From: Archangium violaceum
GTDB taxonomy: Bacteria > Myxococcota > Myxococcia > Myxococcales > Myxococcaceae
Reading direction: 5' to 3'
Length of the DNA: 64,000 nt
Assembly: GCF_016859125.1 (NCBI RefSeq)
Contig: NZ_CP069338.1
Location: 2,356,001 to 2,420,000, forward strand
Made by a program: the position numbers and the translations under genes. Shown here piece by piece: positions 6,776 through 39,600 of the stretch; the first letter of the stretch is position 1, and the number at the start of each line of letters is the position of its first letter. The notes beneath the pieces are model-generated. The model searched no databases, was not told where the DNA came from, and saw only the letters and a list, made by a program, of their open reading frames with translations.

Positions 6776-8119
6776 TCACCCCAGGCGGCGAACCCGAAGC
6801 TGGATGCCACTCTTGGGGTGGGGGAAGGGAACCTGGACGTACTCGAGATCCTGCCCCGGCACGAGCTCCCACGTGTAGTGCTTCAGCAACAACGCCAGCA
6901 TCACGCTCATCTCCACCATCGCGAAGTGCTGGCCCAGGCAGATGCGCGGCCCGCCGCCGAAGGGAATGAACGTGCCGGGCTTCTTCTGCTCGTTGCGCTC
7001 GGAGCCGAAGCGATCGGGATCGAACCGCTCCGGGGCCGACCAGGTCGAGCCCCCGTGCGCGGACTTGATGCTGACGGGAATCATCCACCCCTTGGGGATG
7101 CGGTAGCCGTTGTAGGCCACGTCCCGGGTGGTGACGCGGAAGGCACCGCCAATGGGAGGAATGAGACGCATGCCCTCGTTGAGGAGCTGGACGAGGTAGG
7201 GCATCGCCCGCAGCCCATCCAGCGTGAGGGGGCCCTGCAGGCCCGCGACCGCCTCGCGGCCCCGCTGGAGCACGTCCGGGTACTGGGCCAGCATCAGCAG
7301 GAGGTTGGAGGTGGCGGTGACGGTGGTGTCGTGCCCGGCGAAGAGGAGCAGTTGCAGCTCGTCGACGATCACCTCGCGCGTCAGGGGATTGCCCGCCTCG
7401 TCACGGCTCTGGATGAGCGAGCCCAGCAGATCCGGCGGTTGCTCGGTCCGCGACTGCCGCTCGGAGACCACCTGCTCCAGGTAGCCGACCATCGCCTTCT
7501 TCGCGGCGAGCGCCCGCCCGAACGTCGTCCAGGGCAGGTTCACCGTGACGGGAACGAAGAGCCCCGCCGTCCAGGACTTGAAGTGGCGCATCAGGAACGG
7601 CACGTCCACCGTGTCCTGCCCGAAGATGAGCGCCAGGGCGATCTCGAAGGCCAGCTCCCGCATGGCGGGCCACAAGGTGAAGTCGCCCGGGAGCGCCGCC
7701 CAGCGCTCGAAGTGCCGCGTGGCGATCGCTTCGATGGTGGGCACGAACCCACGCATCGTCGCGTAGCTGAAGTGGGGCGCGAGCAGACGGCGCCGCTCCA
7801 GGTGCTCCTCGCCTTCGATCATCGAGAGGCAGTGCGCCCCGAGCAACTGGCGGACCCCCGGAGTCCAGCGGTTCTTCAGGTACTTGCCCTCGCCCGCGAA
7901 GATCCACTGGATGGCCTCCGGGCCGAGCAGGAACACGGTGGGTGAACCCAGCACGTGGGACCGGAAGACGGGGCCGTACTGGCTTTGCCGGCGTTGGATG
8001 AAGGCCCGGCTGGAGCGCAGGAACTCCAGCGTCTCCCCGAGCAGCGGGAGGCCAGATTTCCCAGGGGGGAGCGGGAGGTTCTCAGGAGACGGGGAACTGG
8101 CATCCACCTGGAGCGTCAT
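6776..8119 (-). CDS. Cytochrome P450 (CYP120/CYP26-like)
   Basis: 447 residues with all P450 hallmarks: proline-rich N-terminus (PLPPGKSGLPLLGETLEFL), I-helix AGHDTT at 261-266, ExxR (EGMR, 315-318), and the heme loop FGGGPRICLG with Cys394 as the thiolate ligand. No N-terminal membrane anchor is seen. The N-terminal style resembles CYP120/CYP26-type hydroxylases of isoprenoids or retinoids (inference from overall look). ATG 8119 is chosen because a GGAG sits 8 nt upstream; an in-frame ATG at 8167 has no such site. No ferredoxin gene lies nearby, so electrons must come from elsewhere. It is the first gene of a two-gene unit with the giant hybrid kinase, whose start is 3 nt after the P450 stop. 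Confidence 0.93.
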   Translation of the reverse strand: MTLQVDASSPSPENLPLPPGKSGLPLLGETLEFLRSSRAFIQRRQSQYGPVFRSHVLGSPTVFLLGPEAIQWIFAGEGKYLKNRWTPGVRQLLGAHCLSMIEGEEHLERRRLLAPHFSYATMRGFVPTIEAIATRHFERWAALPGDFTLWPAMRELAFEIALALIFGQDTVDVPFLMRHFKSWTAGLFVPVTVNLPWTTFGRALAAKKAMVGYLEQVVSERQSRTEQPPDLLGSLIQSRDEAGNPLTREVIVDELQLLLFAGHDTTVTATSNLLLMLAQYPDVLQRGREAVAGLQGPLTLDGLRAMPYLVQLLNEGMRLIPPIGGAFRVTTRDVAYNGYRIPKGWMIPVSIKSAHGGSTWSAPERFDPDRFGSERNEQKKPGTFIPFGGGPRICLGQHFAMVEMSVMLALLLKHYTWELVPGQDLEYVQVPFPHPKSGIQLRVRRLG

Positions 8120-8243
8120 GTCGATGTCTCCGGGCCGTTGGGGGAACAGCCCATGAGGAGAGATCATACAGGAAGCCCAGGCGGGACGTGAGGGAGCGGC
8201 CGGGAGTCCAACCCCTCCTCTCCTCTGACGTTCATCGTGACTT

Positions 8244-9677
8244 TCACTGCGGGCGTAGCACGAGCAGCCGCAGCTCGGTCATGTCCTCGATGGCGTACTT
8301 CACGCCCTCGCGCCCCACCCCCGAGCCCTTCACGCCGCCGTAGGGCATCGTGTCGACGCGGAAGCTCGGCACGTCGCCCACGACGACGCCTCCCACCTCC
8401 AGCTCGTCCCACGCGTGCATCGCCTTCGACAAGTCATTGGTGAAGAGGCCCGCCTGCAATCCATAGCGCCCCTCGTTCACCACTCGCAGCGCCTCGTCGA
8501 ATGCCTGGAAGGGCTGGAGCAATACGACCGGACCGAAGGCCTCCTCCGCGCTCAGCGGCTCGTCGGCGGGCACGCCCTCCAGCACGGTGGCCTCGAGCAG
8601 TGCGCCGCGCCGCCCTCCCCCCGTCAGCACACGAGCCCCCCGCTCCACCGCGCGTTGAATCCAGCCCTCCAGCCGCCGCGCGGCGGGCTCGTCGATCATC
8701 GGACCGAGCGTGGTGGACTCGTCCCGGGGGTTCCCCGCGCGCAGCGCCCGCGCCCGTGCGACGAGCCGCTCGCGCAGCGCGTCGTACAGCTCCTCGTGCA
8801 CGAGCACGCGCTGCACCGAGATGCAGCTCTGCCCCGCCTGGAAGAAGGCGCCATGGGCCACCCGGTCCGCGACGAAGTCCAGGCGTTCGCCCTGGTCACG
8901 GTCCACCACGCAGGCCGCGTTGCCTCCCAACTCCAGGACCACCTTCTTGCGGCCAGCGCGCGCCTTGAGCTCCCACCCCACCTTCTCCGAGCCGGTGAAC
9001 GAGAGCAGCTTCAGCCGGTCGTCCTCGATGAAGGGCCCCACGTCCTCGAGGCGCGTCGGGAGCACCGAGAAGGCCCCCTCGGGGAGCTCCGTCTCGGCGA
9101 GCACCTCGGCCAGGAGCATCGCGCTCACGGGCGTGCGATCCGACGGTTTGAGCACGAACGGGCAACCCGCGGCGATGGCCGGCGCCACCTTGTGCGCCAC
9201 CAGGTTGAGCGGGAAGTTGAACGGGGTGATGAACGAGCACGGGCCCACGGGCACGCGCTGGGTGAAGCCCCGGTAGCCGGCCGCGCGCCGGGACACCTCC
9301 AGGTTCAGCACCTCGCCCTCGAGCCGCACGGCCTCCTCGGCCGCCGCCTTGAACGTGTCGATCAACCGGGTGACCTCGCCCCGAGCGTCGCGCAGGGGCT
9401 TGCCCGCCTCGACGCAGAGCGCGAGCGCGAGCTCCTCGGCCCGCTCATGGAAGCGGCGCACACAGTGCTCGAGCACCTCCTGCCGCGCATACGGCGCCAG
9501 CCGCCGCATGGGGCCCGTCGCGCGCACCGCGGCGGCGATGGCCTCCTCCACGGCCGCCGCGTCCGCGAGCGCCACGCGGGTCACGACCTCGCCCGAGTAC
9601 TTATCGGTCACGGCCAGCTCCGCGTTGGACTGCCGCGGACGGTTGGCCAGGTAATACGGATAGCGTTCAGCCAGCAT
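8244..9677 (-). CDS. Aldehyde dehydrogenase (NAD(P)+-dependent, ALDH superfamily)
   Basis: 477 residues. ALDH signature residues are all present: oxyanion Asn154 (TPFNFP), cofactor Lys177 (LKPSD), general base Glu249 (LELGGNAA), catalytic Cys285 (AGQSCIS). It oxidises an aldehyde to a carboxylate; the substrate cannot be read. It is close to the lactaldehyde / glyceraldehyde-3-phosphate (non-phosphorylating) / phosphonoacetaldehyde type. ATG 9677 is chosen over 9695 because GGGAGG lies 7 nt before it and overlaps the stop of the ThDP enzyme. The gap to that gene is 14 nt, so the two form an operon: the ThDP enzyme may make or cleave a 2-keto compound and this enzyme oxidise an aldehyde. Confidence 0.92.
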   Translation of the reverse strand: MLAERYPYYLANRPRQSNAELAVTDKYSGEVVTRVALADAAAVEEAIAAAVRATGPMRRLAPYARQEVLEHCVRRFHERAEELALALCVEAGKPLRDARGEVTRLIDTFKAAAEEAVRLEGEVLNLEVSRRAAGYRGFTQRVPVGPCSFITPFNFPLNLVAHKVAPAIAAGCPFVLKPSDRTPVSAMLLAEVLAETELPEGAFSVLPTRLEDVGPFIEDDRLKLLSFTGSEKVGWELKARAGRKKVVLELGGNAACVVDRDQGERLDFVADRVAHGAFFQAGQSCISVQRVLVHEELYDALRERLVARARALRAGNPRDESTTLGPMIDEPAARRLEGWIQRAVERGARVLTGGGRRGALLEATVLEGVPADEPLSAEEAFGPVVLLQPFQAFDEALRVVNEGRYGLQAGLFTNDLSKAMHAWDELEVGGVVVGDVPSFRVDTMPYGGVKGSGVGREGVKYAIEDMTELRLLVLRPQ

Positions 9678-27216: not shown

Positions 27217-29247
27217 CTACTGCTGGCTGACGGGCTTGATGCGCGCGTCGGCCTCCTTGGCGGTGTCGGCCTCGGAGTAGCCCGGACCCGAGGCGGGGAA
27301 CTTCGCGGCGAGGTAGTCCGCGAAGGCCTTCTGCTCGTGGCCCTCGTCCGAGAAGCCATTGCTGCCGGGATTGGTGTCCAGCGAGACGCGGTTGTAGAAC
27401 CCGTCGTTCTCCCGCTCGAAGCGGGGGAACGGGTAGCTGTCACCACCACCGGCCATGAAGCCGAGCGTCACCAGGCGGAAGGTGCGCGCCACATCGCCCA
27501 CGAGGACGCCATCCTCCACCAGGAGCTCCTCCGTGCCATCCGCGTTCACGATGACGGCCTTGATGATGCGCTGACCGGGAGTGGTGACGTTGTAGTCCTT
27601 ATCGAGCACCTGCGCCGGCTTGCTGGCGTCATACTCGAAGCGGATGCCGCCCACCTGGGGGAACTGCCCGGGGGTGGCGCCAGGGGACACGGCCGCCACG
27701 GAGTGCTCGAGCACCTCCTCGAGCTGCTTCGCGGTGACGGTCACCAGCACCAGGTCGTTGTTGAAGCGCAGGCTGTTCTCGATGTCGAGCTGGCTGATGT
27801 CGCCCTCGTGCTTGTTGGCGGCGGGGTTGGCGGCGGGAGGGCCGTAGGTGGGGTTGGAGCCGGTGCCCACGGTGCCGATGGAGTCGCGGATGCCGCCGCC
27901 ATTCTTCAGGGAGATGACGGTGGAGGGATCCGCCTTCTGGGCGTACCAGAGGTTCGCATCGGAGGTGATGTTTCCGAGGTTGGTCTCCTCGGTGCGCACG
28001 GAGGTGCGCAGGCCATTGAGGTACACCTGCGTCTTGCCGAAGATGGCGCCGTCCTTGGCGAGCACCACGGCCTTCACGCCTTCGGCGATGGCCTTGACCT
28101 CGGGGTCCACCTGGGAGGCCGCCGCGAGACGAGCGACACCCGCCGCGTCCGTGGCGTAGGCACCATTCTGCAGCGGGTTGTGCAGCGCCGGGATGAGCAC
28201 GCCCGCCTCATCGAAGTGGGCGATGAAGCGCCCCACGTAGTGCCAGTTGGAGGACACGTTCAACACGGCGATGGGCTGATCGGACTTCGACGTCTTCCAC
28301 TGTGGATACTCCACGGTGGCGGTATCACCGGAGTAGAGCGCGTCATCCGCGTCGGCCCAGACGGCATGGTTGCCACCGGCGATGATGATGTCCACGCCCT
28401 CGAGGCGCCTGGGCAGCTCGTCCACCTCGACGACGTATTGCTGCATGTGCGCCATGAGGATGATCTTGTCCACGCCGGAGTCGCGCAGCGCGTCCACCTG
28501 GGCCTGGATGATGGAGGCCAGCCCGTCATGGTCGACAGGGTCCGCGGGCGAGGTGACGACGGTGCCCGGAGAGGAGATGTTCGGCAGCAGCGGGGTGGTG
28601 GCGCCCACGATGCCGACCTTCTGGCCCTCGAGGGTGTAGATGACGCTGGGGGTGATCTTGTTGTGCAGACTCGTGCCCGGGTCGTTGGCATCGAGCTCGG
28701 TGCCCGCGGGCACGACCTGCCCCTTGAGGTCGCTGTTGGCGCTGAAGTCGAGGTTGGACGTGAGGTAGGGGAACTTCGCGCCGGACCAGGTGCCATCACT
28801 GGCGATGATGTTGCGAATCTCCCGCGTGCCGTTGTCGAACTCATGGTTGCCGAACGAGGCGGCGTGGAAGCCCATCTCGTTGAACATGGCCATGTCGGCG
28901 CGGCCGGCGCTCGCCGTGCCCACGCCGGGAACGGTCGCCATGTCGGGGTCACCTCCGGCGTTGAAGAAGACACCGGGGAGCCACAGGTCACCGCTGGCGA
29001 GCTTGAGGGTCCGGCGGGGGAACTGCGCCTCGAGCACGCGCAGCACGGCGGAGAAGCGCGGGGCATCCTCGGTGGCGGGGAGACCCGACTCCATGTCCGA
29101 GGCGTGGAGGACCTGGAAGGTGAAGGCGGCCCGCGGAGGAGAGGGAGGAGGAGGCGTCGGCTCCTCGGTGTTGCCACAGCCCGAGGTGAAGGCCAGCGCC
29201 AGAAGAGCGCTGGCCAGGAAGACGGGTCGTTTCTTCGAATGGAGCAT
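27217..29247 (-). CDS. Lipoprotein 5'-nucleotidase / metallophosphatase
   Basis: 676 residues. Signal peptide II with lipobox FTSGC. The N-terminal metallophosphatase domain shows LHASDMES (D-x-E where many members have D-x-H), SGDLW, GNHEFDNG and GGNHAVWAD. The C-terminal 5_nucleotid_C domain shows TNLGNITSDANLWYA and NGGGIRDS. Such enzymes hydrolyse nucleotides, NAD-derived nucleotides or UDP-sugars outside the cytoplasm. ATG 29247 starts the signal peptide. It lies downstream of the vWA gene by 87 bp on the same strand and could share its transcript; a nucleotide-scavenging enzyme beside a nicotinamidase-like protein is suggestive but unproven. Confidence 0.9.
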   Translation of the reverse strand: MLHSKKRPVFLASALLALAFTSGCGNTEEPTPPPPSPPRAAFTFQVLHASDMESGLPATEDAPRFSAVLRVLEAQFPRRTLKLASGDLWLPGVFFNAGGDPDMATVPGVGTASAGRADMAMFNEMGFHAASFGNHEFDNGTREIRNIIASDGTWSGAKFPYLTSNLDFSANSDLKGQVVPAGTELDANDPGTSLHNKITPSVIYTLEGQKVGIVGATTPLLPNISSPGTVVTSPADPVDHDGLASIIQAQVDALRDSGVDKIILMAHMQQYVVEVDELPRRLEGVDIIIAGGNHAVWADADDALYSGDTATVEYPQWKTSKSDQPIAVLNVSSNWHYVGRFIAHFDEAGVLIPALHNPLQNGAYATDAAGVARLAAASQVDPEVKAIAEGVKAVVLAKDGAIFGKTQVYLNGLRTSVRTEETNLGNITSDANLWYAQKADPSTVISLKNGGGIRDSIGTVGTGSNPTYGPPAANPAANKHEGDISQLDIENSLRFNNDLVLVTVTAKQLEEVLEHSVAAVSPGATPGQFPQVGGIRFEYDASKPAQVLDKDYNVTTPGQRIIKAVIVNADGTEELLVEDGVLVGDVARTFRLVTLGFMAGGGDSYPFPRFERENDGFYNRVSLDTNPGSNGFSDEGHEQKAFADYLAAKFPASGPGYSEADTAKEADARIKPVSQQ

Positions 29248-29334
29248 GGATGCGTTCCGTCGGTTGGGACGGCCCTTCGGCCGTGGGAGGGGCCGGAGGG
29301 TAGCGAAAAAATCCACGCCAGGAGAAATGACGAA

Positions 29335-30132
29335 TCAGGCTCCGAAACCGCCGAGCGCGGTACGGCTGAAGCTGGCGGCGCCCTGGCTGACGCGGACGGC
29401 GGACTGGCTGAAGACCTGGAAGGCCTTGCGGATGTCCTGGGCGCTCTGACCGGGGGTGAGGATCCACTTGTCCTCGATGCCCATCTCGCGGAAGACCTTG
29501 CGGAAGTCGGTGCTGCCGTCGTCGATGCCCATGGCGGCGACGATGTGGTTCTCGGCGCGGCGCAGGTCGCTCACGAGCGCGGCGACATCGCGGGGGCGGG
29601 AGCTCTGCGAGTGGCAGTCGGCCCCATCGGTGATGAGGAGGGTGACGGTGCGAGCGGAGACGCCGTTGCGGGTGAACTCCTGGGCCTTGGCGAGCACGGT
29701 GCCGAGCAGGACGACGGCCTGGTCATAGAGGGGCGTGCCCTTGTCGGGGTCATAGTTCTTGGAGTGCAAGCGGACGACGTCCTCGAGGGGCCGGAAGGGA
29801 TTGAGGACGAAGCCATTGAGGTAGCGGGTGTGGAAGAGGATGCCGTCCTTCTGCTGGGAGGAGAGGAGGGCATCGAGGACGAGGTTGTGACCCTCGCAGA
29901 CGGTGCGGGCATGACCCGAGTGCTGAATGGAGCCGGAGTCATCGGGCATGACGGTGACGAGGACGACCTCGGAGGCCTGGACATCATCGACGCTGATGCC
30001 GAGCCCCGCCTGGATCTGCGCACCGAGGTCGACGACGGTGAGGGCCTGGAGGGCGGCGGGGCTGAGGATGCCCTCGGAGTGAGCGGCCTGGAAGAGTTGA
30101 GAGACATTGGAGCTACGGGAAGAGGAGCTCAT
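29335..30132 (-). CDS. von Willebrand factor A domain protein (TerY/YegL-like)
   Basis: 265 residues; ATG 30132 with GGAGG at 6 nt. The body is one vWA domain with a full MIDAS site: D-x-S-x-S at 64-68 (DDSGS), Thr133 (KGTPLYD) and Asp169 (LLITDGAD). No signal peptide, so cytoplasmic. In TerY-P type systems a vWA protein of this kind works with a PP2C phosphatase and a special kinase, both encoded just upstream here. Last gene of the four-gene set; a REP-like hairpin sits in its leader. Substrate or partner unknown. Confidence 0.85.
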   Translation of the reverse strand: MSSSSRSSNVSQLFQAAHSEGILSPAALQALTVVDLGAQIQAGLGISVDDVQASEVVLVTVMPDDSGSIQHSGHARTVCEGHNLVLDALLSSQQKDGILFHTRYLNGFVLNPFRPLEDVVRLHSKNYDPDKGTPLYDQAVVLLGTVLAKAQEFTRNGVSARTVTLLITDGADCHSQSSRPRDVAALVSDLRRAENHIVAAMGIDDGSTDFRKVFREMGIEDKWILTPGQSAQDIRKAFQVFSQSAVRVSQGAASFSRTALGGFGA

Positions 30133-30145
30133 CTGAACCTCCACT

Positions 30146-30178
30146 CCCTCTCCCAATGGGAGAGGGTCGGGGTGAGGG
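30146..30178. repeat. REP-like palindrome
   Basis: CCCTCTCCCA-A-TGGGAGAGGG (30146-30166) followed by TCGGGGTGAGGG. This is a widespread bacterial interspersed palindrome type. It starts 14 nt upstream of the vWA start, so on that transcript it would fold right before the ribosome-binding site. Confidence 0.7.
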
Positions 30179-30184
30179 TACGTA

Positions 30185-30220
30185 GAACCGTGCCGGGAAA
30201 CCGTGCGAACAGAACCGTGC
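30185..30220. repeat. Three short direct repeats of AACCGTGC
   Basis: AACCGTGC occurs at 30186, 30199 and 30213 (spacing 13 and 14), in the 91-bp gap between the cysteine hydrolase and vWA genes. Function unknown. Confidence 0.5.
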
Positions 30221-30223
30221 TGA

Positions 30224-31294
30224 CTAGGCGATGCGGAGATCCGGCCACGAGGCGAGCGGATCCGTGGACTTCACGAGGTGCATACCGGCATCGGCGAAGC
30301 GCTTGAGAGCGGCCTCGGTCTGGGGAGTGAAGTCCGCGGCGAAGCCGCCCTTGCCATCGGGGACGGTAACGGAAGACATACAATCCGTGAGCAGATACAC
30401 CTTGCGAGCGAGCGCGGCGTCCTGGGCGAGGATCTCCCCGAGCAGGTCATCGATGGAGCTCTTCACGCAGTGACTGGCGGCCTGGCCGGCGATGACGACG
30501 GCATCGGCGGTGAGGAGCGTCTTGATGAACTGGGTATTGCGCTGGGCGAGAGGCTGCCCGTCGTGGCGGGAGAGGACCTCGGGGCGGAGCACGGAGTAGT
30601 TCTCGGTGAGGGGATTGCCGCCCTTGACCTCGGCCCAGGACTGGGCGCCGCGGACGAACGAGTGGAACAGCCGAGCCTCCTGCACGACACCGGCGATGGC
30701 ATGCCCCTCACCACCGAGCAGGCAGTGAGGGGGCCAGAGGTAGAGGGTGTACTTCCCGGCGCGCTCGAGCTCCTCGCAGTAGTACTTCACCTGCTTGAGG
30801 AGCCAGGGGTAGTTGCCGCCGCAGAGCCACTTCGCCATGGCGGGATTGGGGCGGACGAGGCCGCGTTCGATCTGCTCGCGAGTGACCTCGCGGTAGGCGG
30901 TGAGGGGCTGGTCGTTCTGGTCGACCCAGAAGGACGGGAAGAAGATCTGGTAGGCGAAGTGGGTATCGAGCGTGGTGGTGACGTTCGTCAGGGCGCCGAG
31001 GTTCTTGTAGATGAACTCGGCGATGCGGCGGCTGTCGTCGATGGCGCCGCGGCCGGAGCGGCCGCCGACGTAGAGGGAGCCCTCGGGGAAGCAGAAGTCC
31101 TTCTGGACGTCGATGAGGAGCAGGTGGAGGTTGAAGGAATCGGTGGCGGCGGCGGAGAGGCCGTGGGCGCCGCGCCAGGCGTGGGCCTCGGCCTGGAGCG
31201 CCAGGGCATTGGGCCCGTAGGCGTACGCGCTGGCATTGGCGGGCTTGTAGAACGACGGAAGCGGCAGCGTCTGGAGCTTCGACTGCGTCTTCAT
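30224..31294 (-). CDS. Nicotinamidase-like cysteine hydrolase (isochorismatase superfamily)
   Basis: 356 residues from ATG 31294 (GGGGG 6 nt before; ATG 31300 is too close to it). Catalytic triad candidates Asp62 (LLIDVQKDFCFPEGSL), Lys224 (VKGGNPLTENYS) and Cys276 (ASHCVKSS). Several stretches are nicotinamidase-like: DVQKDFC..GSLYVGG, LDTHF (Asp110, His112 as metal ligands) and LYLWPPHCLLGGEGHA. The His expected 8 residues after Asp110 is Phe. At 356 residues it is much longer than usual nicotinamidases (about 200), with a 50-residue N-terminal extension and an insert. It is set between the TerY-type kinase/phosphatase pair and the vWA gene and has the same promoter module as the PP2C gene. 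It probably deamidates nicotinamide or a related amide; substrate not proven. Confidence 0.85.
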   Translation of the reverse strand: MKTQSKLQTLPLPSFYKPANASAYAYGPNALALQAEAHAWRGAHGLSAAATDSFNLHLLLIDVQKDFCFPEGSLYVGGRSGRGAIDDSRRIAEFIYKNLGALTNVTTTLDTHFAYQIFFPSFWVDQNDQPLTAYREVTREQIERGLVRPNPAMAKWLCGGNYPWLLKQVKYYCEELERAGKYTLYLWPPHCLLGGEGHAIAGVVQEARLFHSFVRGAQSWAEVKGGNPLTENYSVLRPEVLSRHDGQPLAQRNTQFIKTLLTADAVVIAGQAASHCVKSSIDDLLGEILAQDAALARKVYLLTDCMSSVTVPDGKGGFAADFTPQTEAALKRFADAGMHLVKSTDPLASWPDLRIA

Positions 31295-31304
31295 GTGCAT
31301 CCCC

Positions 31305-31354
31305 CTTCGTGTATCGACAACACCAACATAGTGTTCAATCTACACATAGTCAAG
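31305..31354 (-). promoter_or_regulatory. Promoter with 11-bp-periodic GTGT/ACAC operator (copy 1)
   Basis: Minus strand: -35 TTGACT (31353-31348), 17-bp spacer, -10 TATGTT (31330-31325). Overlaid are four half-sites GTGT (31345-31342), ACAC (31334-31331), GTGT (31323-31320), ACAC (31312-31309), each exactly 11 bp apart. The same layout is found before the PP2C gene. Confidence 0.75.
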
Positions 31355-31398
31355 GCAAGGTGGCCCGATTCGGGGCCGCCCCCGGGTACGGCGGAGTG

Positions 31399-33267
31399 TC
31401 AGGTCATGCGCAGGGCGGTGATGTCCTGACGGCGCACGACGGTGAGCCCGTGCTTCGTGAGGAAGAGGCGGCTGTCGGCATCGACGAAGGGCTCGGTGTC
31501 GGGGAACTCGCGAACGACCTCGAGCCGGCCCTGACGTAGTTCCACGCGGACGAGCCCCGCGTCGGTGGGGGCGAAGAGGGCCTCTCCCGCGGCGCACCTG
31601 CCTCGCGGAGAGCCGAGCCACGAGCCATCCCCCGCCTCCCCCTTCGCACTGGCCTTCACCGAGCCATCCGCGGCCACCACCACGCAGTGGTGCACGGTGC
31701 GACCTCCGGTCTCCTCGGCGAGGAAGAGCCAGCAGAGGGCGCCATCGAAGACGGCCTCGGCGTCCACCAGCCTGCCCGAGGGCCACGGCAGGGCGAGCCC
31801 ATCCTTGAGGCCCGGGCGCTCGGCGTCGAAGACGAAGGCGCCACGCAGCGAGCCCGCACGGTGGAAGCCGAGCCCGAAGCGCGGCCCCACGAAGAGGCGC
31901 GTCTGCCCGGCGAGCACCTCGCCCATGCGCTCGGGACCGAACGTCCCGTCCCGCCACAAGGCACCGGCATGAGCCCAGTAGCGGTGGCGCGCGTTCGCCG
32001 CGAAGGCCGGACGCTGCTCGGGCGCATCCACGCCAAGACGCTCGGGGCGCTGGCCCGGAGCGAGCACCGCGAGCTCCCCGCCCTTCCCCACCAGCGTGAC
32101 GGCGCCGTGGAGGGCCCATTGCAGCGAGGGGTCCAATCCGCCCTGGAGCACGTCCGAGCCCGTTTCGCGCCGGTACGCCCCGTCCGCGTGGAAGAGCCAG
32201 CGCAAGGCGCCGTCCTCGACACAGGCGTGGAGGATGACGCCCTTGGTGGTGAAGAGACGGGTGGCCACCACCTGGCCGCGCACGGTGGTGACGGGCGTGG
32301 TGGCCGCCGTCGCGCTCGGGCGGCATGTGGGGCACGAGGCCCTCGCGTGCTCCACCCCGCACGAAGCGCAGACGGTGAAGCGCAGCGAGTCCAGCAGCGG
32401 CAGGGGAAAGGGCCCTCGTGCGTCCTCGACGAACACCCGGTGCAGGCAGTGCAGCAGGTCATCCGGGAGGACGCCGAAGGGCGTGGCGGGCCTGGGGTAC
32501 TGCACCTCCGGGTGGAAGACGGTGATGCGCTGGAGGACGCGAGCGGTGGGCGTGGCCTTGGGCGCGGGAGGCGTGGGGCGGTGGATGCCGCCATGAGGCC
32601 CCACGCACAGGAGGCTCTGCATCAGCGCGACGGCGAAGGCATACCAATCACTCTCCCTGGACGCCGGGCGCGAGGGCATCAGTCCCTGGGTCGAGCCCCC
32701 CAGGCGCAGCGGATCGAGGAACTTCTCGGTGAAGACGGTGGCGAGGTAGGGGCCGAACTGGAAGCTGTCCGCGTCGATGAGCCAGGCGTCGTTGCCGGTG
32801 ACGAGGATGTTGAGATCATTGAAGTCCCCCACCACCACGCCGCAACCATGGAGCGCGGAGAGCGAGCGGTGCAGACCGCGGAAGATCTCCGCGACGCGGG
32901 AGGACGATACGCCGGCGCGGCGGAAGGACGGCTCACCGAAGCGGCGCAGGGGCTCGGCGCCCTCGAGCTTGCGCATGGCGTAGCCGAGCACCGTCTTCCC
33001 CTTCTTGTCGGTGGCGAGCGTCCGCGGAGAGATGACGCGTGGGGGCAGCGGCCTGGGGAAGGCGGGGAGCTTGTGCTGGTGCTCGGCGATGCGGGCGCGG
33101 GCGGCGGCCTGCTCGTCGGGAAGGTTGCCGTAATCGGGGTGCTCGGGGGGCTTGAAGAGCTTGAGGACGCGCCCGTCTCCGAGGTCGAACACGTCGGCCT
33201 CGCCGCCCTTGCCGAGCGCCTTCGTGGGATCCAACCGGAGCTTCTTGCCTTCGAGGTAGACGTCCAT
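31399..33267 (-). CDS. TerY/YegI-type protein kinase with zinc ribbon and beta-rich C-terminus
   Basis: 622 residues; start ATG 33267, 4 nt after the PP2C stop. Divergent kinase: Gly-loop GKGGEADVF, Lys36 (VLKLFK), catalytic loop VVGDFNDLNIL (Asp148, Asn153; the HRD His-Arg and the Lys are replaced) and DxD in place of DFG (LIDADSFQ, Asp165). The GD-N...DxDSxQ pattern is the hallmark of YegI-like kinases of TerY-P triads. A zinc ribbon follows (Cys300, Cys303, Cys312, Cys315), then about 300 residues of short beta repeats. Probably an active cytoplasmic kinase opposed by the coupled PP2C phosphatase. Followed after 98 bp by the second promoter module and the hydrolase. Confidence 0.85.
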   Translation of the reverse strand: MDVYLEGKKLRLDPTKALGKGGEADVFDLGDGRVLKLFKPPEHPDYGNLPDEQAAARARIAEHQHKLPAFPRPLPPRVISPRTLATDKKGKTVLGYAMRKLEGAEPLRRFGEPSFRRAGVSSSRVAEIFRGLHRSLSALHGCGVVVGDFNDLNILVTGNDAWLIDADSFQFGPYLATVFTEKFLDPLRLGGSTQGLMPSRPASRESDWYAFAVALMQSLLCVGPHGGIHRPTPPAPKATPTARVLQRITVFHPEVQYPRPATPFGVLPDDLLHCLHRVFVEDARGPFPLPLLDSLRFTVCASCGVEHARASCPTCRPSATAATTPVTTVRGQVVATRLFTTKGVILHACVEDGALRWLFHADGAYRRETGSDVLQGGLDPSLQWALHGAVTLVGKGGELAVLAPGQRPERLGVDAPEQRPAFAANARHRYWAHAGALWRDGTFGPERMGEVLAGQTRLFVGPRFGLGFHRAGSLRGAFVFDAERPGLKDGLALPWPSGRLVDAEAVFDGALCWLFLAEETGGRTVHHCVVVAADGSVKASAKGEAGDGSWLGSPRGRCAAGEALFAPTDAGLVRVELRQGRLEVVREFPDTEPFVDADSRLFLTKHGLTVVRRQDITALRMT

Positions 33268-33271
33268 GGAG

Positions 33272-34078
33272 TCAGGCCCTTCCCTGCCGGCGGCGCAGGA
33301 CGACGAGGGTGGTGTCATCGGAGAGCAACCCGGGCACGCGCACGAGTCGCTGGGCCGGGAAGTCGGCGCGGACGGACTCGCGGTTGAGGAGCGCGAGACG
33401 GCGGCGCAGTGCGTCCGGGTTGGAGAAGAACCGGTCGTCGCTCCAGAACTGCGAGAGCGGGCCCACGGGCTCGTCGCGCTCGGGAACCCGCGCCTCGGCG
33501 AGCCCCTCCAGGTCACAGACACCATCCGTGCCGAGCAGCAGCGAGTCCACCTCCCCGGTGCGCTGGAGTGCCTGGGCCCGCAGGGAGACGGCGCCCGGCT
33601 TCAGCAACCCATAGGCGAGGTAGGGCGGCGCGTTGCCGGGAAAGGGCCCGAGCCGGTGGACCTCGCCATTGAGGGCCCAGAGCCCGTCACCCGCGGAGAA
33701 GACGAGCGTGTGCTCCGGGGTGACGACGGCGCCCACGAGGGTGAAGAGCAGCGCCTCGCCGATGGACCGCTGCCCGAGCTCCCCAGAGAGGGCCTGGAGG
33801 AAACAGAGCACGTCCGCGCCCAGGCGCTGGAGGAACCCGGGCGAGTCGACGGGCACCTGCTGGCCCAGCAGCGAGAGCGCTCCCTCCACTACCCTGCGGG
33901 CGCCGAGCTGCGCCCCCAGCTCACTCTGGGCGCCACTGCCGCACCCGTCCGCGACGACGGCGGCGAGCCCGTGCTCGCTGGCCCGCGCCCAGAGGGCATC
34001 CTGGTTGTTGCGTCCGGCTCGGGCGTGCTCCCGGCCCATGACGGTGGCGGCGGCAAGCTCGAAGGGCAGCGAGGACAT
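33272..34078 (-). CDS. PP2C-family protein phosphatase (TerY-P/YegK-like)
   Basis: 268 residues; ATG 34078 preceded by AGGAGAGGAGAGCC. PP2C metal-binding Asp motifs are all visible: NNQDALW, VVADGCGSG, FSAGDGLWA, LLGTDGV and LLSDDTTLVVL. The N-terminus VMGREHARAGRNNQDA is typical of the YegK/TerY-associated subgroup. It should dephosphorylate Ser/Thr on the kinase or its targets. First gene of the set PP2C - kinase - hydrolase - vWA, under the GTGT/ACAC promoter module at 34107-34156. Confidence 0.9.
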   Translation of the reverse strand: MSSLPFELAAATVMGREHARAGRNNQDALWARASEHGLAAVVADGCGSGAQSELGAQLGARRVVEGALSLLGQQVPVDSPGFLQRLGADVLCFLQALSGELGQRSIGEALLFTLVGAVVTPEHTLVFSAGDGLWALNGEVHRLGPFPGNAPPYLAYGLLKPGAVSLRAQALQRTGEVDSLLLGTDGVCDLEGLAEARVPERDEPVGPLSQFWSDDRFFSNPDALRRRLALLNRESVRADFPAQRLVRVPGLLSDDTTLVVLRRRQGRA

Positions 34079-34106: not shown

Positions 34107-34156
34107 CTTCGTGTTTTTCCAACACATAGTTAGTGTCCACGAAACACCAAGTCAAG
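34107..34156 (-). promoter_or_regulatory. Promoter with 11-bp-periodic GTGT/ACAC operator (copy 2)
   Basis: Minus strand: -35 TTGACT (34155-34150), 17-bp spacer, weak -10 TAACTA (34132-34127). Half-sites GTGT 34147-34144, ACAC 34136-34133, GTGT 34125-34122 and ACAC 34114-34111, exactly 11 bp apart. As in copy 1, CTTGACT is 2 bp from the first half-site and the last reads ACACGAAG. Confidence 0.75.
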
Positions 34157-34332
34157 CCGGGCGTGGCCACTACCCGCTGGTTGGGGGTACCAGGTCCTTC
34201 CCATCCGCTCGACGAAGCCCTCCAGGCGAACAATCAAGGCGGGTGCCCCGTTCGCGTCCGAAAGCGTACAATTCGTCGTGTCGGCGCGACGACGTCATGG
34301 GGACCGGTTCTCGCCAACAGGTGTGCTCATCC

Positions 34333-37300
34333 ATGTTGGATATTCCGGGGTACCGGGTTCTGGGAACCATCCGAGCCACGGGCTCGAACGCTTTGTTTCA
34401 GGCGGTGCGTGAGGCCGATGGCCTGCCCGTCATCATCAAGACCCCCATGCTGGCCTCGCCCGGTCGCCCGGAGAGCGAGCGCTACCGGCGCGAGTTCTCG
34501 ATCCTGCAGCGGCTTCGGGACGTGCGGGGCGTGGTCAGGCCCTATGCCTACGAACGGCTCGGCGAGCGGCCCCTGTTGCTGCTGGAGCGGGTGCAGGGCC
34601 ACTCCCTGTCCGAGTCCACGGGCCACCCCCTGGAGCTCTCCCGGTTCCTGCAGCTGGCCCTCTCCCTGGCTTCCACCCTGGGTGAGGTCCACGGGCGCAA
34701 CGTCATCCACAAGGACATCAAGCCCTCCAACATCATCCTGGAGCCCTCGGGCGACGCACGGCTCATCGACTTCGGGGTGGCCACCCTGCAGAAGGTGGAG
34801 CACCTGGACGCGGCGCCGACACACCTCATCGAAGGCACGCTGGCCTACATGTCGCCAGAGCAGACGGGGCGGATGAACCGGGCGGTGGACTACCGCACCG
34901 ACTTCTACTCCCTGGGGATCACCTTCTACGAGCTGCTCACAGGGCGTCGCCCCTTCCAGGGGAAGGACGCGCTCGAGTGGTTCCACGCCCACATGGCGCA
35001 GAAGCCCAGGCCGCCGCACGAGTTGAACCCGCAGGTGCCCCCGGTCTTGTCCGCCCTCGTCCTCAAGCTCCTGGCGAAGGTGGCCGAGGAACGCTACCAG
35101 AGCGCCGAGGGACTCCAGGCCGACCTGGAGCGCTGCCGCCAGGCGCTGAGCCAGGGCGTGCGGGAGGAATTCACGTTGGGCACACAGGACACGCCCAACC
35201 ACTTCCAACTGCCGCAACGGCTCTACGGACGAGAGGAGCAGGTGTCCACCCTGCTCGAGGGCTTCGAGCGGGTGGCGAGCACGGGCAGGCCGGAGCTGGT
35301 CCTCGTCAGCGGGTACTCGGGCATCGGCAAGTCCTCCGTGGTGAACGAGTTGCACAAGCCCGTGGTCCAGCGCCGCGGCTTCTTCCTGAGTGGCAAGTTC
35401 GACCAGTTCCAGCGGGACATCCCCTACACCACCCTGGCCCAGACACTCCGGGGCCTCGTGCAGCAGTTGCTCGCGGGGAGCGATGAGGAGCTCGCCCGGT
35501 GGCGCCAGCAGGTGAACCAGGCCTGGGAAGGCCAGGGCCAGCTGCTCGTGGATCTCGTGCCCCAGCTGGAGGTGCTGGTGGGCCCTCAGCCCGCGCTCCA
35601 GGAGGTGCCCCCTGGCGAGGTGCAGCACCGCTTCTATCGGGTGGTCCGCCAGTTCCTCTCGGTGTTCGCCACCCCGCGGCACCCCCTGGTGGTGTTCCTG
35701 GATGACCTGCAGTGGGCGGACCTCGCCAGTCTGCAGCTGCTCTCTCATATGCTGTCGCAGCCGGAAGCCCTCCCGGTGTTGTGGATTGGCGCCTACCGGG
35801 ACAACGAGGTGGGCCCCTCCCACTCGCTCCTCTCCGTGTTGGACGAGGCGCGCAAGACGGGGGCACGAATGACGGACATCCGCCTGGAGCCGCTGAACGT
35901 GGCCCAGGTGGAGCAGCTGGTCGCCGACACGCTGCCAGGAGCGGACAGGGAAGTGGTCGCCCCCCTCTCGGCGATGGTGCACGAGAAGACGGGCGGCAAC
36001 CCCTTCTTCCTGTTGCAGCTGCTGGTGGCGCTCCACCAGGACGGCCTGCTGGTGCGTGTGCCCGGAGGAGGCTGGCGGTGGGACGCCGAGGGAGTGCGGG
36101 CCCGGGACTATTCGGAAAACATCGTCGACTTCATGGTGGGCAAGCTGCGTCAGCTCCCCCCGGGCACGCAGCATCTGCTGCAGCTGGCGGCGTGTGTGGG
36201 CAATGTCTTCCCCCTCCAGATGTTGGGCACCCTCGCCGGTCTGTCCGAGGAAGGAGAGGTGGAGCAAGGCATCGAGCCCGCGCTCCAGGAAGGCATGCTG
36301 GTGCGCGCCAGCCCGACCCTGTACCGCTTCCTCCATGACCGCATCCAACAGGCTGCCCATTCCCTCCTCTCCGAGTCCCAGCGCAAGGCCGCCCACCTGC
36401 GCATCGGCCGGTTGATGCTCGAGGGCCTCTCCCAGGAACAACTGCGCGAATCGCTCTTCGACGTGGTGAGCCAGCTCAACGCCGGGGTGGAGCTGATGGA
36501 GGACCCCGCGGAGCGCCACCACCTCATGCGGTTGAACACCGAGGCGGGTGACAAGGCCAGGGCCGCGATGGCGCTCCGCCCCGCCATCACCTACTTCTCG
36601 ACGGCCTTCTCGCTCATTCCAGGAGACCCCTGGGAGACGGACCCCGAGCTGGCCTTCAAACTGAAATTCACCCAGGCGCGCTGTGAATTCATGCACGGCA
36701 ACATCGCCGAGGCGCGCCGGCAGGTCGACACGCTCCTCCCCCGGGCTCGTACCCGCGCGGACTCCGTGGCCGTCCACATCCTGAGGATGGACGTCCACTT
36801 CGCCATGAGCGAGAGCCAGCGGGGTCTGGCCTGCATGCGGGAATGCCTGGCCGTGCTGGGCATGCCGCTCTCGACAACCCCCTCCTGGGAGGAGGCGGTG
36901 GCCGCTCATGAGGAGGTGTGGACCTTGCTGGGGGAGCGCCCCATCGAGAGCCTCATCGACCTGCCACCCATGACCGACCCGGACGTGAAGCTGGCCGTCA
37001 GCACCCTCCTGGAGTTCTACCCGACCGCGTACGCCACCAATCACCACCTGTTCATCATCATCGTGAGCAGGATTGTCTCCCTCACCATCCGCCACGGTTT
37101 CGTGGATGCCGCCACGCCCGGATGTGGCTGGTTTGGCTTCATCTCCAGCTCGTACTTCAAGCGGTACCGGGAAGGCCTTGCCTTCTCCAGGCTCGCCCTC
37201 GGGTTCGTCGAGCAGTACAACCTGACCGCCCACCGCGGGAGGGTTCTCTACTGCATGCAGTTCTGCAGCTATTGGACCCGGCCCCTGCCCCAGGCGCAGG

Positions 37301-39600
37301 AGTTCGTCACCAAGGGACTCCACCACGCGCTTCAGGTGGGGGACATCCTGGGTGCCGCCTACAGCAACTGGTACATCGTCTACAACCGTCTCTTCATGGG
37401 GCATCACCTGGATGAGGTCTACCGGGAGACGCTCGTGCGCGGCGGGTTCTTGAGCAAGACGGGCATCAGGGAGCCCCAGGACTATGTCCTGTTGGATCAG
37501 CGCTACGTGCAGAACATGCGCGGGCACACCCACTCGTTCGGCACGCTGAACGGGGACGGCTTCGATGAGCAGGCCTTCGAGGCCCAGCTCCCCCAACGCC
37601 AGGCGACCCTGAAGAGCAACTATTGGCTCGCCAGACTCCAGTCGCGATTCATGTGCGGTGCCTACGCGGAGGCCCGGGAGGCAGCGGACAAGACGGCCGA
37701 GTTCCTGTGGGTCATGCAGGGCACACTCCCCCAGTGCGTCTTCCATTTCTACCGCGCCCTCGCCCTGGCGGCGTGCTTCGAGGGGGCCACGCCCGAGGAG
37801 CAGCGGCGGTTCCTCGAGGCCATCCAGTCGCACCAGCGGCAGCTCGCGGAGTGGGCGGAGAATTGCCCCGAGAACTTCCACGCGCTCGAGCGACTGGTGT
37901 CCGCGGAGCTGGCCCGCCTCGCGGGACGGTCCGAGGAGGCCACGTGCGCTTACGAGGAAGCCATCAACTCGGCGAGAGAGAATGGTGCCACCCAGTACGT
38001 GGCACTGGCCAGCGAGCTCGCCGCGAACTTCTGGCGCACGCGGAAGGCGCCCATCGTCGCTCACGCCTTCGCACGTGAAGCCCGGGCGGCGTACCGGCAG
38101 TGGGGCGCCCTGGGCAAGGTCCAGCACCTGGAGTCCCAGTGGCCCCACCTCTCTTCCGTGGCGTCCGCGGAGGACGAGCTGACCACCAGCAGTACGGACT
38201 CGACCCGCATCGACGCGCTCACGGTCGTCAAGGCCCAGCAGGCCGTCTCCAGTGAAATCGTCCTGGAGCGACTGGTCACCACGCTGCTGCACGCGGCCAT
38301 CGAGAACGCGGGCGCCCAGCGAGGCGCCCTGCTACTGCCCGACGGCGACACCCTGTCGGTGGCCGCCAGCTCCGATACGTCGTCGGAGGGAGCGGCCCCC
38401 GAGCTCCCGTGGACGCTCCTCGCCTATGTCCGGCGCGCACAGGAGCACGTGCTCATCGGCGATGCCTCCAAGCCCCATCCCTTCTCGTCCGACGCGTACC
38501 TGGCACACAGTGGAGCGCGCTCGGTGTTGTGCCTGCCCCTGATGAGGCAGGAGCGGTTCTCCGGCGCGCTCTACCTGGAGAACAACCTGGCCACCAACGC
38601 CTTCAGCCCCGCGCGCCTGGCGCTCCTGGGTCACATCGCCTCCCAGGCGGCCATCTCCATCGAGAACGCCCGGCTCTATGAGGACGTCCAGCGCGCCAGG
38701 GCGGAGCTCCGCCAGGCCAATGAGGAGCTGGAGCAGCGGGTGGAGGAGCGTACGCGTGAGCTCAAGCAGGCCCAGGCCCGCCTGGTGGATACCGCTCGCG
38801 AGGTGGGCATGGCGGAGGTGGCCTCCAACGTGCTGCACAACGTGGGCAACGTGCTCACCAGCGCCGTCGTCAACCTCGAGATGATTCGTAAAGCCGTGGG
38901 CTCCTCGCGCGTGGGCCGCCTGAAGCAGGCCTCGAACCTGCTGCTGGAGAACCGGGCCGGACTGGCCGACTTCCTCGCCGAGGGATCTCGCGGCAGCCAC
39001 CTGCCGGACTACCTCTCCGCGCTCGCTGACGAGTTGATGCACGAGCAGACCCGCCTCATGGATGACGTCGATGCCATGGGCCGTCACATCGATCACATCC
39101 GCACCATCGTCCAGGTTCAGCAGACGTATGCCAGGACCACGCTCATGACGGAGGAGTGCGACCTGGGCCACCTCATCGACGACGCCCTGCGCATCCAGAT
39201 GCCCGCCCTGCAGCGCCACGGAGTGTCCGTCCGCATCGAACGCGTTCCCGTCCCCAAGGTGAAGGTGGACAAGCACAAGGTGCTGCAGATCCTCATCAAC
39301 CTGCTGAGCAATGCCAAACACGCGCTGGACTCGAAGCCCGAGGGGCAGCGCAACCTGTGGGTGAAGCTGAGAGCGGAAGGGCCGGTGGCACGCATCCAGG
39401 TGGTGGATGATGGGATGGGAATCGCGCCCGAGGTGAAGGGGAAACTGTTCGCCCACGGCTTCACCACCCGCAAGGACGGCCACGGCTTCGGCCTGCACTC
39501 CAGCGCCCTGGCGGCACAGCTCCTCAATGGCCGTCTGAGCATCGAGAGCGAGGGACCCGGAAAGGGCGCCGTGACCACGCTGGAGCTACCTCTCTCCTAG
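34333..39600 (+). CDS. Giant hybrid sensor: Ser/Thr kinase - AAA ATPase - TPR-like - GAF - histidine kinase (paralogue)
   Basis: 1755 residues, one residue different in length from the protein at 1508-6772 and alike throughout (both open MLDIPGY; same Lys36). Kinase with NVIHKDIKPSN and IDFGVATLQ; ATPase with SGYSGIGKSS and FLDDLQWAD; helical middle; GAF (QRGALLLP); coiled coil; histidine kinase with SNVLHNVGNVLTS and HGFGLHSSALAAQLL. No membrane segment. ATG 34333 matches the paralogue's start; an upstream GTG at 34111 lies inside the divergent promoter and is rejected. Divergent from the PP2C gene with 254 bp between, so it is not part of that operon. Signal and output unknown. Confidence 0.9.
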   Translation: MLDIPGYRVLGTIRATGSNALFQAVREADGLPVIIKTPMLASPGRPESERYRREFSILQRLRDVRGVVRPYAYERLGERPLLLLERVQGHSLSESTGHPLELSRFLQLALSLASTLGEVHGRNVIHKDIKPSNIILEPSGDARLIDFGVATLQKVEHLDAAPTHLIEGTLAYMSPEQTGRMNRAVDYRTDFYSLGITFYELLTGRRPFQGKDALEWFHAHMAQKPRPPHELNPQVPPVLSALVLKLLAKVAEERYQSAEGLQADLERCRQALSQGVREEFTLGTQDTPNHFQLPQRLYGREEQVSTLLEGFERVASTGRPELVLVSGYSGIGKSSVVNELHKPVVQRRGFFLSGKFDQFQRDIPYTTLAQTLRGLVQQLLAGSDEELARWRQQVNQAWEGQGQLLVDLVPQLEVLVGPQPALQEVPPGEVQHRFYRVVRQFLSVFATPRHPLVVFLDDLQWADLASLQLLSHMLSQPEALPVLWIGAYRDNEVGPSHSLLSVLDEARKTGARMTDIRLEPLNVAQVEQLVADTLPGADREVVAPLSAMVHEKTGGNPFFLLQLLVALHQDGLLVRVPGGGWRWDAEGVRARDYSENIVDFMVGKLRQLPPGTQHLLQLAACVGNVFPLQMLGTLAGLSEEGEVEQGIEPALQEGMLVRASPTLYRFLHDRIQQAAHSLLSESQRKAAHLRIGRLMLEGLSQEQLRESLFDVVSQLNAGVELMEDPAERHHLMRLNTEAGDKARAAMALRPAITYFSTAFSLIPGDPWETDPELAFKLKFTQARCEFMHGNIAEARRQVDTLLPRARTRADSVAVHILRMDVHFAMSESQRGLACMRECLAVLGMPLSTTPSWEEAVAAHEEVWTLLGERPIESLIDLPPMTDPDVKLAVSTLLEFYPTAYATNHHLFIIIVSRIVSLTIRHGFVDAATPGCGWFGFISSSYFKRYREGLAFSRLALGFVEQYNLTAHRGRVLYCMQFCSYWTRPLPQAQEFVTKGLHHALQVGDILGAAYSNWYIVYNRLFMGHHLDEVYRETLVRGGFLSKTGIREPQDYVLLDQRYVQNMRGHTHSFGTLNGDGFDEQAFEAQLPQRQATLKSNYWLARLQSRFMCGAYAEAREAADKTAEFLWVMQGTLPQCVFHFYRALALAACFEGATPEEQRRFLEAIQSHQRQLAEWAENCPENFHALERLVSAELARLAGRSEEATCAYEEAINSARENGATQYVALASELAANFWRTRKAPIVAHAFAREARAAYRQWGALGKVQHLESQWPHLSSVASAEDELTTSSTDSTRIDALTVVKAQQAVSSEIVLERLVTTLLHAAIENAGAQRGALLLPDGDTLSVAASSDTSSEGAAPELPWTLLAYVRRAQEHVLIGDASKPHPFSSDAYLAHSGARSVLCLPLMRQERFSGALYLENNLATNAFSPARLALLGHIASQAAISIENARLYEDVQRARAELRQANEELEQRVEERTRELKQAQARLVDTAREVGMAEVASNVLHNVGNVLTSAVVNLEMIRKAVGSSRVGRLKQASNLLLENRAGLADFLAEGSRGSHLPDYLSALADELMHEQTRLMDDVDAMGRHIDHIRTIVQVQQTYARTTLMTEECDLGHLIDDALRIQMPALQRHGVSVRIERVPVPKVKVDKHKVLQILINLLSNAKHALDSKPEGQRNLWVKLRAEGPVARIQVVDDGMGIAPEVKGKLFAHGFTTRKDGHGFGLHSSALAAQLLNGRLSIESEGPGKGAVTTLELPLS

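Follow-up and report, generated by a model that had tools for sequence, protein, structure and literature searches.

What is a nicotinamidase-like enzyme doing among the genes of a probable protein phosphorylation switch? The question is raised by a stretch of 64,000 nucleotides of the soil bacterium Archangium violaceum (contig NZ_CP069338.1, positions 2,356,001 to 2,420,000), termed the window here. Between positions 29335 and 34078 its minus strand carries, in this order, genes for a PP2C-type phosphatase, a Ser/Thr kinase, a long nicotinamidase-like cysteine hydrolase (Nic) and a von Willebrand factor A (vWA) protein. We propose, with a probability of about 0.72, that this set is a regulated entry gate to the salvage of nicotinamide adenine dinucleotide (NAD+), in which Nic stands under an NrtR-type operator and a phospho-switch of the TerY-P type. 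The proposal builds on a co-inherited unit with intact active sites, a nicotinamidase fold, recurring NAD-salvage neighbours and the operator. A preliminary description of the stretch had pointed out the four genes; beyond it, the set is found far more widely than in myxobacteria and on phage records, and in bacteria its operator is found beside NrtR-like genes. The genes are as follows.

33272-34078, minus strand: PP2C-type protein phosphatase, first gene of the set; 268 aa; Pfam PP2C_2, 9.7e-18
31399-33267, minus strand: YegI/TerY-P-type Ser/Thr kinase with a C-terminal zinc ribbon and an all-beta region of about 300 residues; 622 aa; invariant residues and kinase fold
30224-31300, minus strand: Nic, long nicotinamidase-like cysteine hydrolase; 358 aa; fold and invariant triad and metal ligands
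29335-30132, minus strand: vWA protein with a complete MIDAS motif; 265 aa; residues invariant in homologues

The catalytic residues checked are intact. The PP2C protein alone is a plain Pfam match; the kinase, Nic and the vWA protein all fall under the curated Pfam and NCBIfam cut-offs. The alignments take in relatives from different phyla as well as viral contigs. In them PP2C residues D27, D44, G45, D131, D185 and D254, the metal-binding Asp among them, kinase residues K36, D148, N153 and D165, the kinase zinc-ribbon cysteines 300, 303, 312 and 315, and the MIDAS residues D64-x-S66-x-S68, T133 and D169 of the vWA protein (start taken as the ATG at 30132, replacing the TTG at 30156) are each invariant in 25 of 25 homologues. 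The structure model of the kinase (predicted local distance difference test, pLDDT, 88.5; predicted template modelling score 0.54) matches the kinase fold at Z 19.1, and the kinase profile gives a weak match to the Nop10 zinc ribbon (E 0.015). Pfam VWA is matched at E 0.01 by three of the 25 vWA homologues (best 2.2e-6), the A. violaceum protein itself being unmatched. The kinase tail after the zinc ribbon (residues 326-621) is modelled as all beta; by form alone it appears sensor-like, and a propeller shape is a guess.

The TerY-P composition noted earlier for the phosphatase, the kinase with its zinc ribbon and the MIDAS protein is thus borne out by the invariant residues, the Pfam match and the kinase fold. 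Escherichia coli also has such kinase, PP2C and vWA genes together, namely YegI, YegK (PphC) and YegL; to our knowledge no nicotinamidase belongs to them. In the part of the literature account available, the TerY-P triad consists of adjacent genes for a vWA protein, a PP2C phosphatase and a Ser/Thr kinase with a C-terminal zinc ribbon (PMC11090510). The set here has the same three gene types in adjacency, including a PP2C gene in the cluster and a Ser/Thr kinase ending in a zinc ribbon, together with a vWA protein that may be TerY-like. It differs in having Nic between the kinase and vWA genes, in the long beta-rich kinase tail, and in its NAD-salvage and NrtR-like neighbours. Closer still in the form of its kinase is the triad of GAP1-N2 GTPase systems (PMC7159879, available portion), which has a kinase with a zinc ribbon and a beta-strand-rich domain, a PP2C phosphatase and a standalone vWA protein. 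That triad, however, is tied to GTPase conflict systems, and the available portion mentions nicotinamidase 0 times.

Nic, which is predicted to be a nicotinamidase, has an AlphaFold2 model of mean pLDDT 95.1. Compared with PDB chains, its top 14 rows are all nicotinamidases or pyrazinamidases (Z 22.9-18.4), with entries from fly, yeast, Acinetobacter, Leishmania (PnC1), pneumococcus, Pyrococcus and Bacillus. Rows less than 1 Z apart are tied, so the weight rests on the six rows at Z 20.6-22.9. Residues D64, K226 and C278, and D112, H114 and H192, are invariant in 32 of 32 aligned sequences; by analogy with PncA we take the former to be the catalytic triad and the latter the metal ligands. A WP-x-H stretch also aligns with Mycobacterium tuberculosis PncA. 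The closest structures, triad and metal site agree in favouring a nicotinamidase. Nic resembles PncA, Pnc1 and Naam in fold, triad, metal ligands and the WP-x-H stretch, but it has an N-terminal extension and an insert, and it is part of a phosphorylation set.

Could Nic act on another substrate, as an isochorismatase or on a carbamoyl or ureido amide, with only an indirect link to NAD? The protein is longer than PncA, its fold is common to hydrolases of the RutB/BiuH type, and it falls below both Pfam Isochorismatase (21.6 bits, cut-off 27) and the PncA model NF008623 (20.7 bits, cut-off 174), a score that places it outside that equivalog family and is uninformative on activity. Nearest structures that are nicotinamidases, the alignment of the WP-x-H stretch and the position of Nic next to nicotinate phosphoribosyltransferase (NAPRT) genes in unrelated lineages speak against another substrate, which we consider improbable.

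The A. violaceum genome has eight PF00857 matches. Five of these were scored against NCBIfam, the best reaching 37.5 of the PncA cut-off of 174; outside this scoring are L215, which by our reading looks EntB-type, L218, nearly identical to L217, and the short L222. A second Nic (L045), at 6.62 Mb, is 39% identical to the first. A phosphoribosyltransferase of the NAPRT family lies directly upstream of it (PF04095, 23.3 bits, cut-off 20.8) and an NrtR-like gene (45% identity) lies downstream.

The four-gene set is an old, co-inherited unit. Nic loci were collected as the best 80 of 494 relatives, one genome per species, and therefore lean towards the A. violaceum type. All four genes are present in 37 of the 80 and some in 10; the other 33 have Nic alone, with short flanks in 6 of them. 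The order PP2C-kinase-Nic-vWA on one strand is kept in 37 of 37 complete loci, one of which has an extra Nic upstream, so that the hydrolase indeed sits between kinase and vWA genes as first described. By record titles the complete loci come from Myxococcota, Elusimicrobia, Acidobacteria, Cyanobacteria and several candidate-phyla bins, and the bins may be wrong. Among 20 regions around Nic from the A. violaceum genome and relatives, 13 have all four genes, one has PP2C and Nic, and six have Nic only. A sample of the phylum (156 genomes at least 90% complete) has Nic in 90 and the kinase in 81, and all 81 genomes with the kinase have Nic (compared by eye). Co-occurrence had been named in the preliminary description as a point on which the idea could fail; the set was kept, although Nic is also found alone. 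Nic and the kinase are present in all six genus genomes searched. Trees of the four proteins correlate over 60 loci (Mantel r 0.87-0.94, p 0.001), part of which is due to the shared ancestry of the loci. One record (L054), titled Comamonas sp. KCTC 72670, carries the set, with a Nic 87% identical to that of A. violaceum, and is probably a mislabelled myxobacterial record.

The neighbours of the set point to NAD+ salvage. NAPRT and NAD synthase (NadE) genes are found in the flanks of viral sets. Among 22 viral records that contain the set, Nic or vWA, NAPRT occurs in 13 (11 above the cut-off) and NadE in nine; NAPRT, NadE and NMNAT of the types sought are in none of 20 control regions of 20 kb each from five viral contigs. 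Both NAPRT and NadE are present in five of five set-bearing bacterial bins, the whole bin being searched. The locus itself contains NAPRT, NadE or NMNAT in 7 of the 37 complete genome loci, in 10 of the 33 with Nic only and in 6 of the 16 complete viral loci.

Several arrangements illustrate the link. A locus of a Parcubacteria bin (L244) has on one strand PP2C, kinase, Nic, vWA, an NMNAT/NAD-kinase-like gene, NUDIX, NAPRT, an unnamed gene, Prs and NadE. Here NAPRT, phosphoribosyl pyrophosphate synthetase and NadE exceed their cut-offs, and the NMNAT-like and NAD-kinase-like halves are below curated cut-offs. These halves belong to a 467-aa protein (L244:7452-8852) that is an apparent fusion. 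The viral locus L238 has NadE, NAPRT, kinase, PP2C, vWA, Nic, a LigA-like ligase, NADAR and NadD, the ligase and NADAR genes both being below cut-offs. The order Nic-NadE-NAPRT is found in Thermoanaerobaculia bins, NAPRT follows directly after vWA in Elusimicrobia bins, and locus L047 reads phosphoribosyltransferase-PP2C-kinase-Nic-vWA.

In the phylum sample, a search with PF04095 at E 1e-10 gave 2 of 156 genomes. The absence of NAPRT that this implied was a false negative: a different type of NAPRT (NF006696, 645 bits, cut-off 503), reached via a QRPTase_C match, is found in 87 of 156. The distance from this NAPRT to nic is 137-313 bp in one genus, and in five further genera it is at most 6 kb. 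In the A. violaceum genome it is at 2341648-2342988 and nic at 2386227-2387300, that is, 43 kb apart, with NAPRT outside the window. The preliminary description had left the choice between NAD salvage and NAD depletion; the neighbours favour salvage, and nothing found supports depletion.

A further link comes from the promoters of the PP2C and nic genes, which had been described as having an operator in common.

34111-34147, no strand: 37-bp double-dyad operator at the PP2C promoter; GTGT-N7-ACAC-N7-GTGT-N7-ACAC with 0 mismatches
31309-31345, no strand: second operator copy, at the nic promoter; 0 mismatches; before nic in five other genus genomes too
34127-34155, minus strand: sigma-70-like PP2C promoter; TTGACT (34155-34150), 17 nt, TAACTA (34132-34127); read in the sequence
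31325-31353, minus strand: sigma-70-like nic promoter; TTGACT, 17 nt, TATGTT; consensus scan, 1 found and 0.3 expected

The shared operator is real. It overlies both promoters (TTGACT-17-TATGTT and TTGACT-17-TAACTA), of which that of PP2C is seen in close relatives and is below the threshold of the consensus scan. With up to three mismatches allowed, 0.08 matches are expected by chance. There are three copies in the 12.7-Mb genome and none is added at one mismatch, and the same applies to five other genus genomes. The pattern is found in 8 of 24 genomes searched and a reversed control pattern in 0 of 24. The third copy (G000:C1:10201326-10201362, outside the window) stands before an SPFH/band-7 gene in six of six genus genomes (L249, L250, L251, L252, L263 and L264). 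In the Elusimicrobia-bin locus L064, a homologue of the SPFH gene (57%) closely follows the NAPRT gene that adjoins the set.

The regulator that binds this operator is most likely of the NrtR family, a conclusion drawn from relatives, above all in the case of A. violaceum. Of the 37 complete loci, 26 have an NrtR-like gene, compared with 2 of the 33 Nic-only loci, and in 20 of the 26 it adjoins PP2C (by eye). These calls are tblastn matches at E 1e-8 with three queries, the match at L096 being a 55-residue piece at a contig end; the three query genes, on which Pfam was checked, have the NrtR_WHD winged-helix domain (4.2e-23 to 6.6e-30). At two loci (L265 and L098) the operator sits between NrtR and PP2C, and an operator half-site is present at PP2C in 30 of 37 complete loci compared with 4.7% of 550-bp stretches drawn at random from these loci. 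According to the part of the MsNrtR work available, NrtR represses NAD genes and is released by ADP-ribose (PMC6800001). The set resembles the MsNrtR regulon in having an NrtR-family gene by NAD genes and an operator dyad with a 7-nt gap; the MsNrtR palindrome is GTTTTCGA-N7-TCGAAAAC, as opposed to GTGT-N7-ACAC twice on a kinase/phosphatase operon here (PMC6800001, same part). In A. violaceum the place of the relatives' NrtR is occupied by a large STK-AAA-GAF-histidine kinase gene (window 34111-39600; domains read by eye), whose first 400 residues have no match in the 19 other fetched regions. At the other end of the set, a 5'-nucleotidase-like gene (27217-29316; Pfam 5_nucleotid_C) adjoins the vWA gene, and it is found in 2 of the 19 other fetched regions (L033 and L035).

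The set is also carried by viruses. An IMG/VR scan with Nic gave 24 contigs, 16 with complete sets, two with partial sets and six with Nic only. Kinase and vWA scans add five contigs, four of them complete and one (L153) without Nic. The contigs are partly redundant, since L131 and L132, and L136 and L137, give the same scores; the weak kinase matches L155 and L156 (29% identity) and the phage record MT837596 are outside the counts. The bacterial order is kept in 11 of the 16 complete viral sets and is rotated in the other five. Many set-bearing viral contigs are 190-545 kb in length.

As a phage marker, the terminase PF03237 was tried on the first ten viral contigs, with two matches, one above the cut-off; because matches were so few, the decision on phage nature was based on PHROGs and GenBank phage records. 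Stretches of five viral contigs are gene-dense, with PHROGs matches to replicative helicase, DNA polymerase, UvsX and homing endonucleases, and the terminase large subunit PHROG is matched by 2 of 94 proteins (from 112 frames of at least 300 aa). Some viral contigs lack proof of phage origin. Three of three GenBank phage records examined (LR745208, LR756511 and LR756500; 462-595 kb), which we take to belong to the huge-phage survey of 2020, have a diverged four-gene set within 12.5 kb, with low profile scores (38 to 192 bits). The A. violaceum vWA protein gave no match in phage and plasmid records at E 1e-5. In L153 (IMGVR_UViG_3300023199_000204, 7088-9027) there are a PP2C gene and a partial kinase that continues into a partial vWA protein, with Nic missing; this state is either a natural deletion or an assembly fault.

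These viral copies raise the question of whether the set is a portable system for recovering NAD+, gated by phosphorylation, that huge phages and bacteria have exchanged. Such a system would sense or use both products of NAD+ destruction, ADP-ribose being sensed via NrtR in bacteria and nicotinamide being used via Nic, and the kinase/PP2C/vWA switch would decide when nicotinamide is committed to NAD+ rebuilding. It would let huge phages counter, and phage or host outlast, NADase immunity, and bacteria recover lost NAD+. The full set on 16 of 24 Nic-bearing viral contigs, with NAPRT, NadE, NADAR or LigA on several, is consistent with this, as are midpoint-rooted trees, where viral sequences form the deepest branches for both Nic and the kinase. 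There is also a precedent: in the available part of its description, NARP1 is a phage-borne means of rebuilding NAD+ from nicotinamide (PMC12774641). NARP1, however, uses Adps and Namat without deamidation, whereas the present loci have a nicotinamidase, NAPRT and NadE and possibly a phospho-switch (PMC12774641, same part). On the other side, NAD genes are near just 6 of 16 viral sets, complete bacterial loci resemble chromosomal NAD loci, and the viral depth rests on midpoint rooting. The idea is a tentative one, compatible with the entry gate.

A role in antiphage defence, to which the triad had been linked at the outset, is a different matter. Here infection would cause the triad to activate Nic, and nicotinamide or NAD would be drained, or a signal made, in an abortive infection. 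Restriction systems can contain TerY-P triads, and TerY-P-like modules can serve as defence on their own, according to the part of the source available (PMC11090510); a NADAR gene in the vicinity of one viral set gives a weak match to a NADAR antiphage model (40.9 bits, cut-off 240). But a nicotinamidase itself consumes no NAD+, and the genes next to the set in relatives, where named, mostly serve NAD synthesis (NAPRT, NadE, NMNAT) or are NrtR-like. In addition, the set is found in all six genus genomes searched, and PADLOC models gave no match to the four proteins at E 0.001, the best (0.0088) being to the kinase parts of MkoA. The antiphage role was thus not upheld, and an antiphage or self-killing module is very unlikely.

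How would the entry gate work? Cleavage of NAD+ would give nicotinamide and ADP-ribose, and ADP-ribose would free the operator from an NrtR-family repressor, so that the set is expressed. Nic would then deamidate nicotinamide, which enzymes that cleave NAD+ release as a by-product, and the resulting nicotinate would return to NAD+ via NAPRT, NMNAT and NadE, the Preiss-Handler route. The reaction on nicotinamide is a prediction, as is the action of kinase and PP2C, whose target may be Nic, the vWA protein or the complex of the two. The kinase would phosphorylate Nic, vWA or both and so set the activity or assembly of Nic; PP2C would oppose the kinase and reset the switch; and the vWA protein, via its metal site, would act as an adaptor that holds the complex together.

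Several findings weigh against the entry gate. NAD genes within the locus are the minority case: just 7 of the 37 complete loci from genomes and 6 of the 16 from viruses have them. NAPRT is weakly tied to Nic in the phylum sample (found, by eye, in 55 of the 90 genomes that have Nic and in 32 of the 66 that do not), and the same-genus genomes G002-G005 are without this NAPRT; of the six genera with NAPRT near nic, three have the whole set and three lack the kinase but have Nic. The A. violaceum set has no NrtR next to it in the 19.9-kb region L031 and the window, and neither NrtR nor the half-site is found in any of the 16 complete viral sets. The best non-nicotinamidase structural match to Nic (Z 18.2) is level with the nicotinamidases lower in the ranking. 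Nic is frequently on its own, as in 33 of the 80 loci (six with flanks too short to tell), and nine phylum-sample genomes have Nic without the kinase. A full-length kinase elsewhere was found in none of 26 Nic-only genomes searched, with a weak kinase-domain match in seven, from which it appears that Nic can work without the triad and that the kinase goes with Nic. The third operator copy precedes a membrane-type SPFH gene rather than a NAD gene. Finally, no Ser/Thr position clearly marks triad-linked Nic as the target, T256 alone standing out (86% versus 33%), so the protein phosphorylated may be Nic, vWA or both.

Some of these points would fit a triad that regulates something else, such as DNA processing or membrane structure, with Nic carried along as a passenger by operon inertia: the many genomes with Nic alone, the operator copy before the SPFH/band-7 gene, and the lack of a phosphosite found in Nic. 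The triad of kinase with zinc ribbon and beta-rich domain, PP2C and vWA is also known without nicotinamidase, in the portion of the source available (PMC7159879). Against a passenger speak a kinase that is never without Nic in 156 genomes, a gene order kept across phyla, and one operator common to both promoters in the genus. We judge it unlikely, and the entry gate remains the preferred reading.

The kind of triad is already known, and the set is a new variant of it: what is new is Nic as its fixed partner, the NAD pathway, and phage and huge viral carriers. The words nicotinamidase and isochorismatase occur 0 times in the available parts of the two triad papers and of surveys of viral NAD genes and jumbo phages (PMC11090510, PMC7159879, PMC9503650, PMC7824862). 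Among the matches listed in a search of the open literature, none joins the triad to a nicotinamidase by title or abstract; Anantharaman 2012 and Rodionov 2008 may mention the set.

We know of no established targets of TerY-P-type triads. Here the triad has one constant partner, an enzyme that is simple to assay and belongs to a known pathway, so that the logic of the switch can be tested directly. The findings suggest that reversible phosphorylation may act at the entry to NAD salvage in bacteria, and that huge phages may carry a regulated NAD-salvage kit. This is of interest as loss and repair of NAD+ are now central to the conflict between phages and bacteria.

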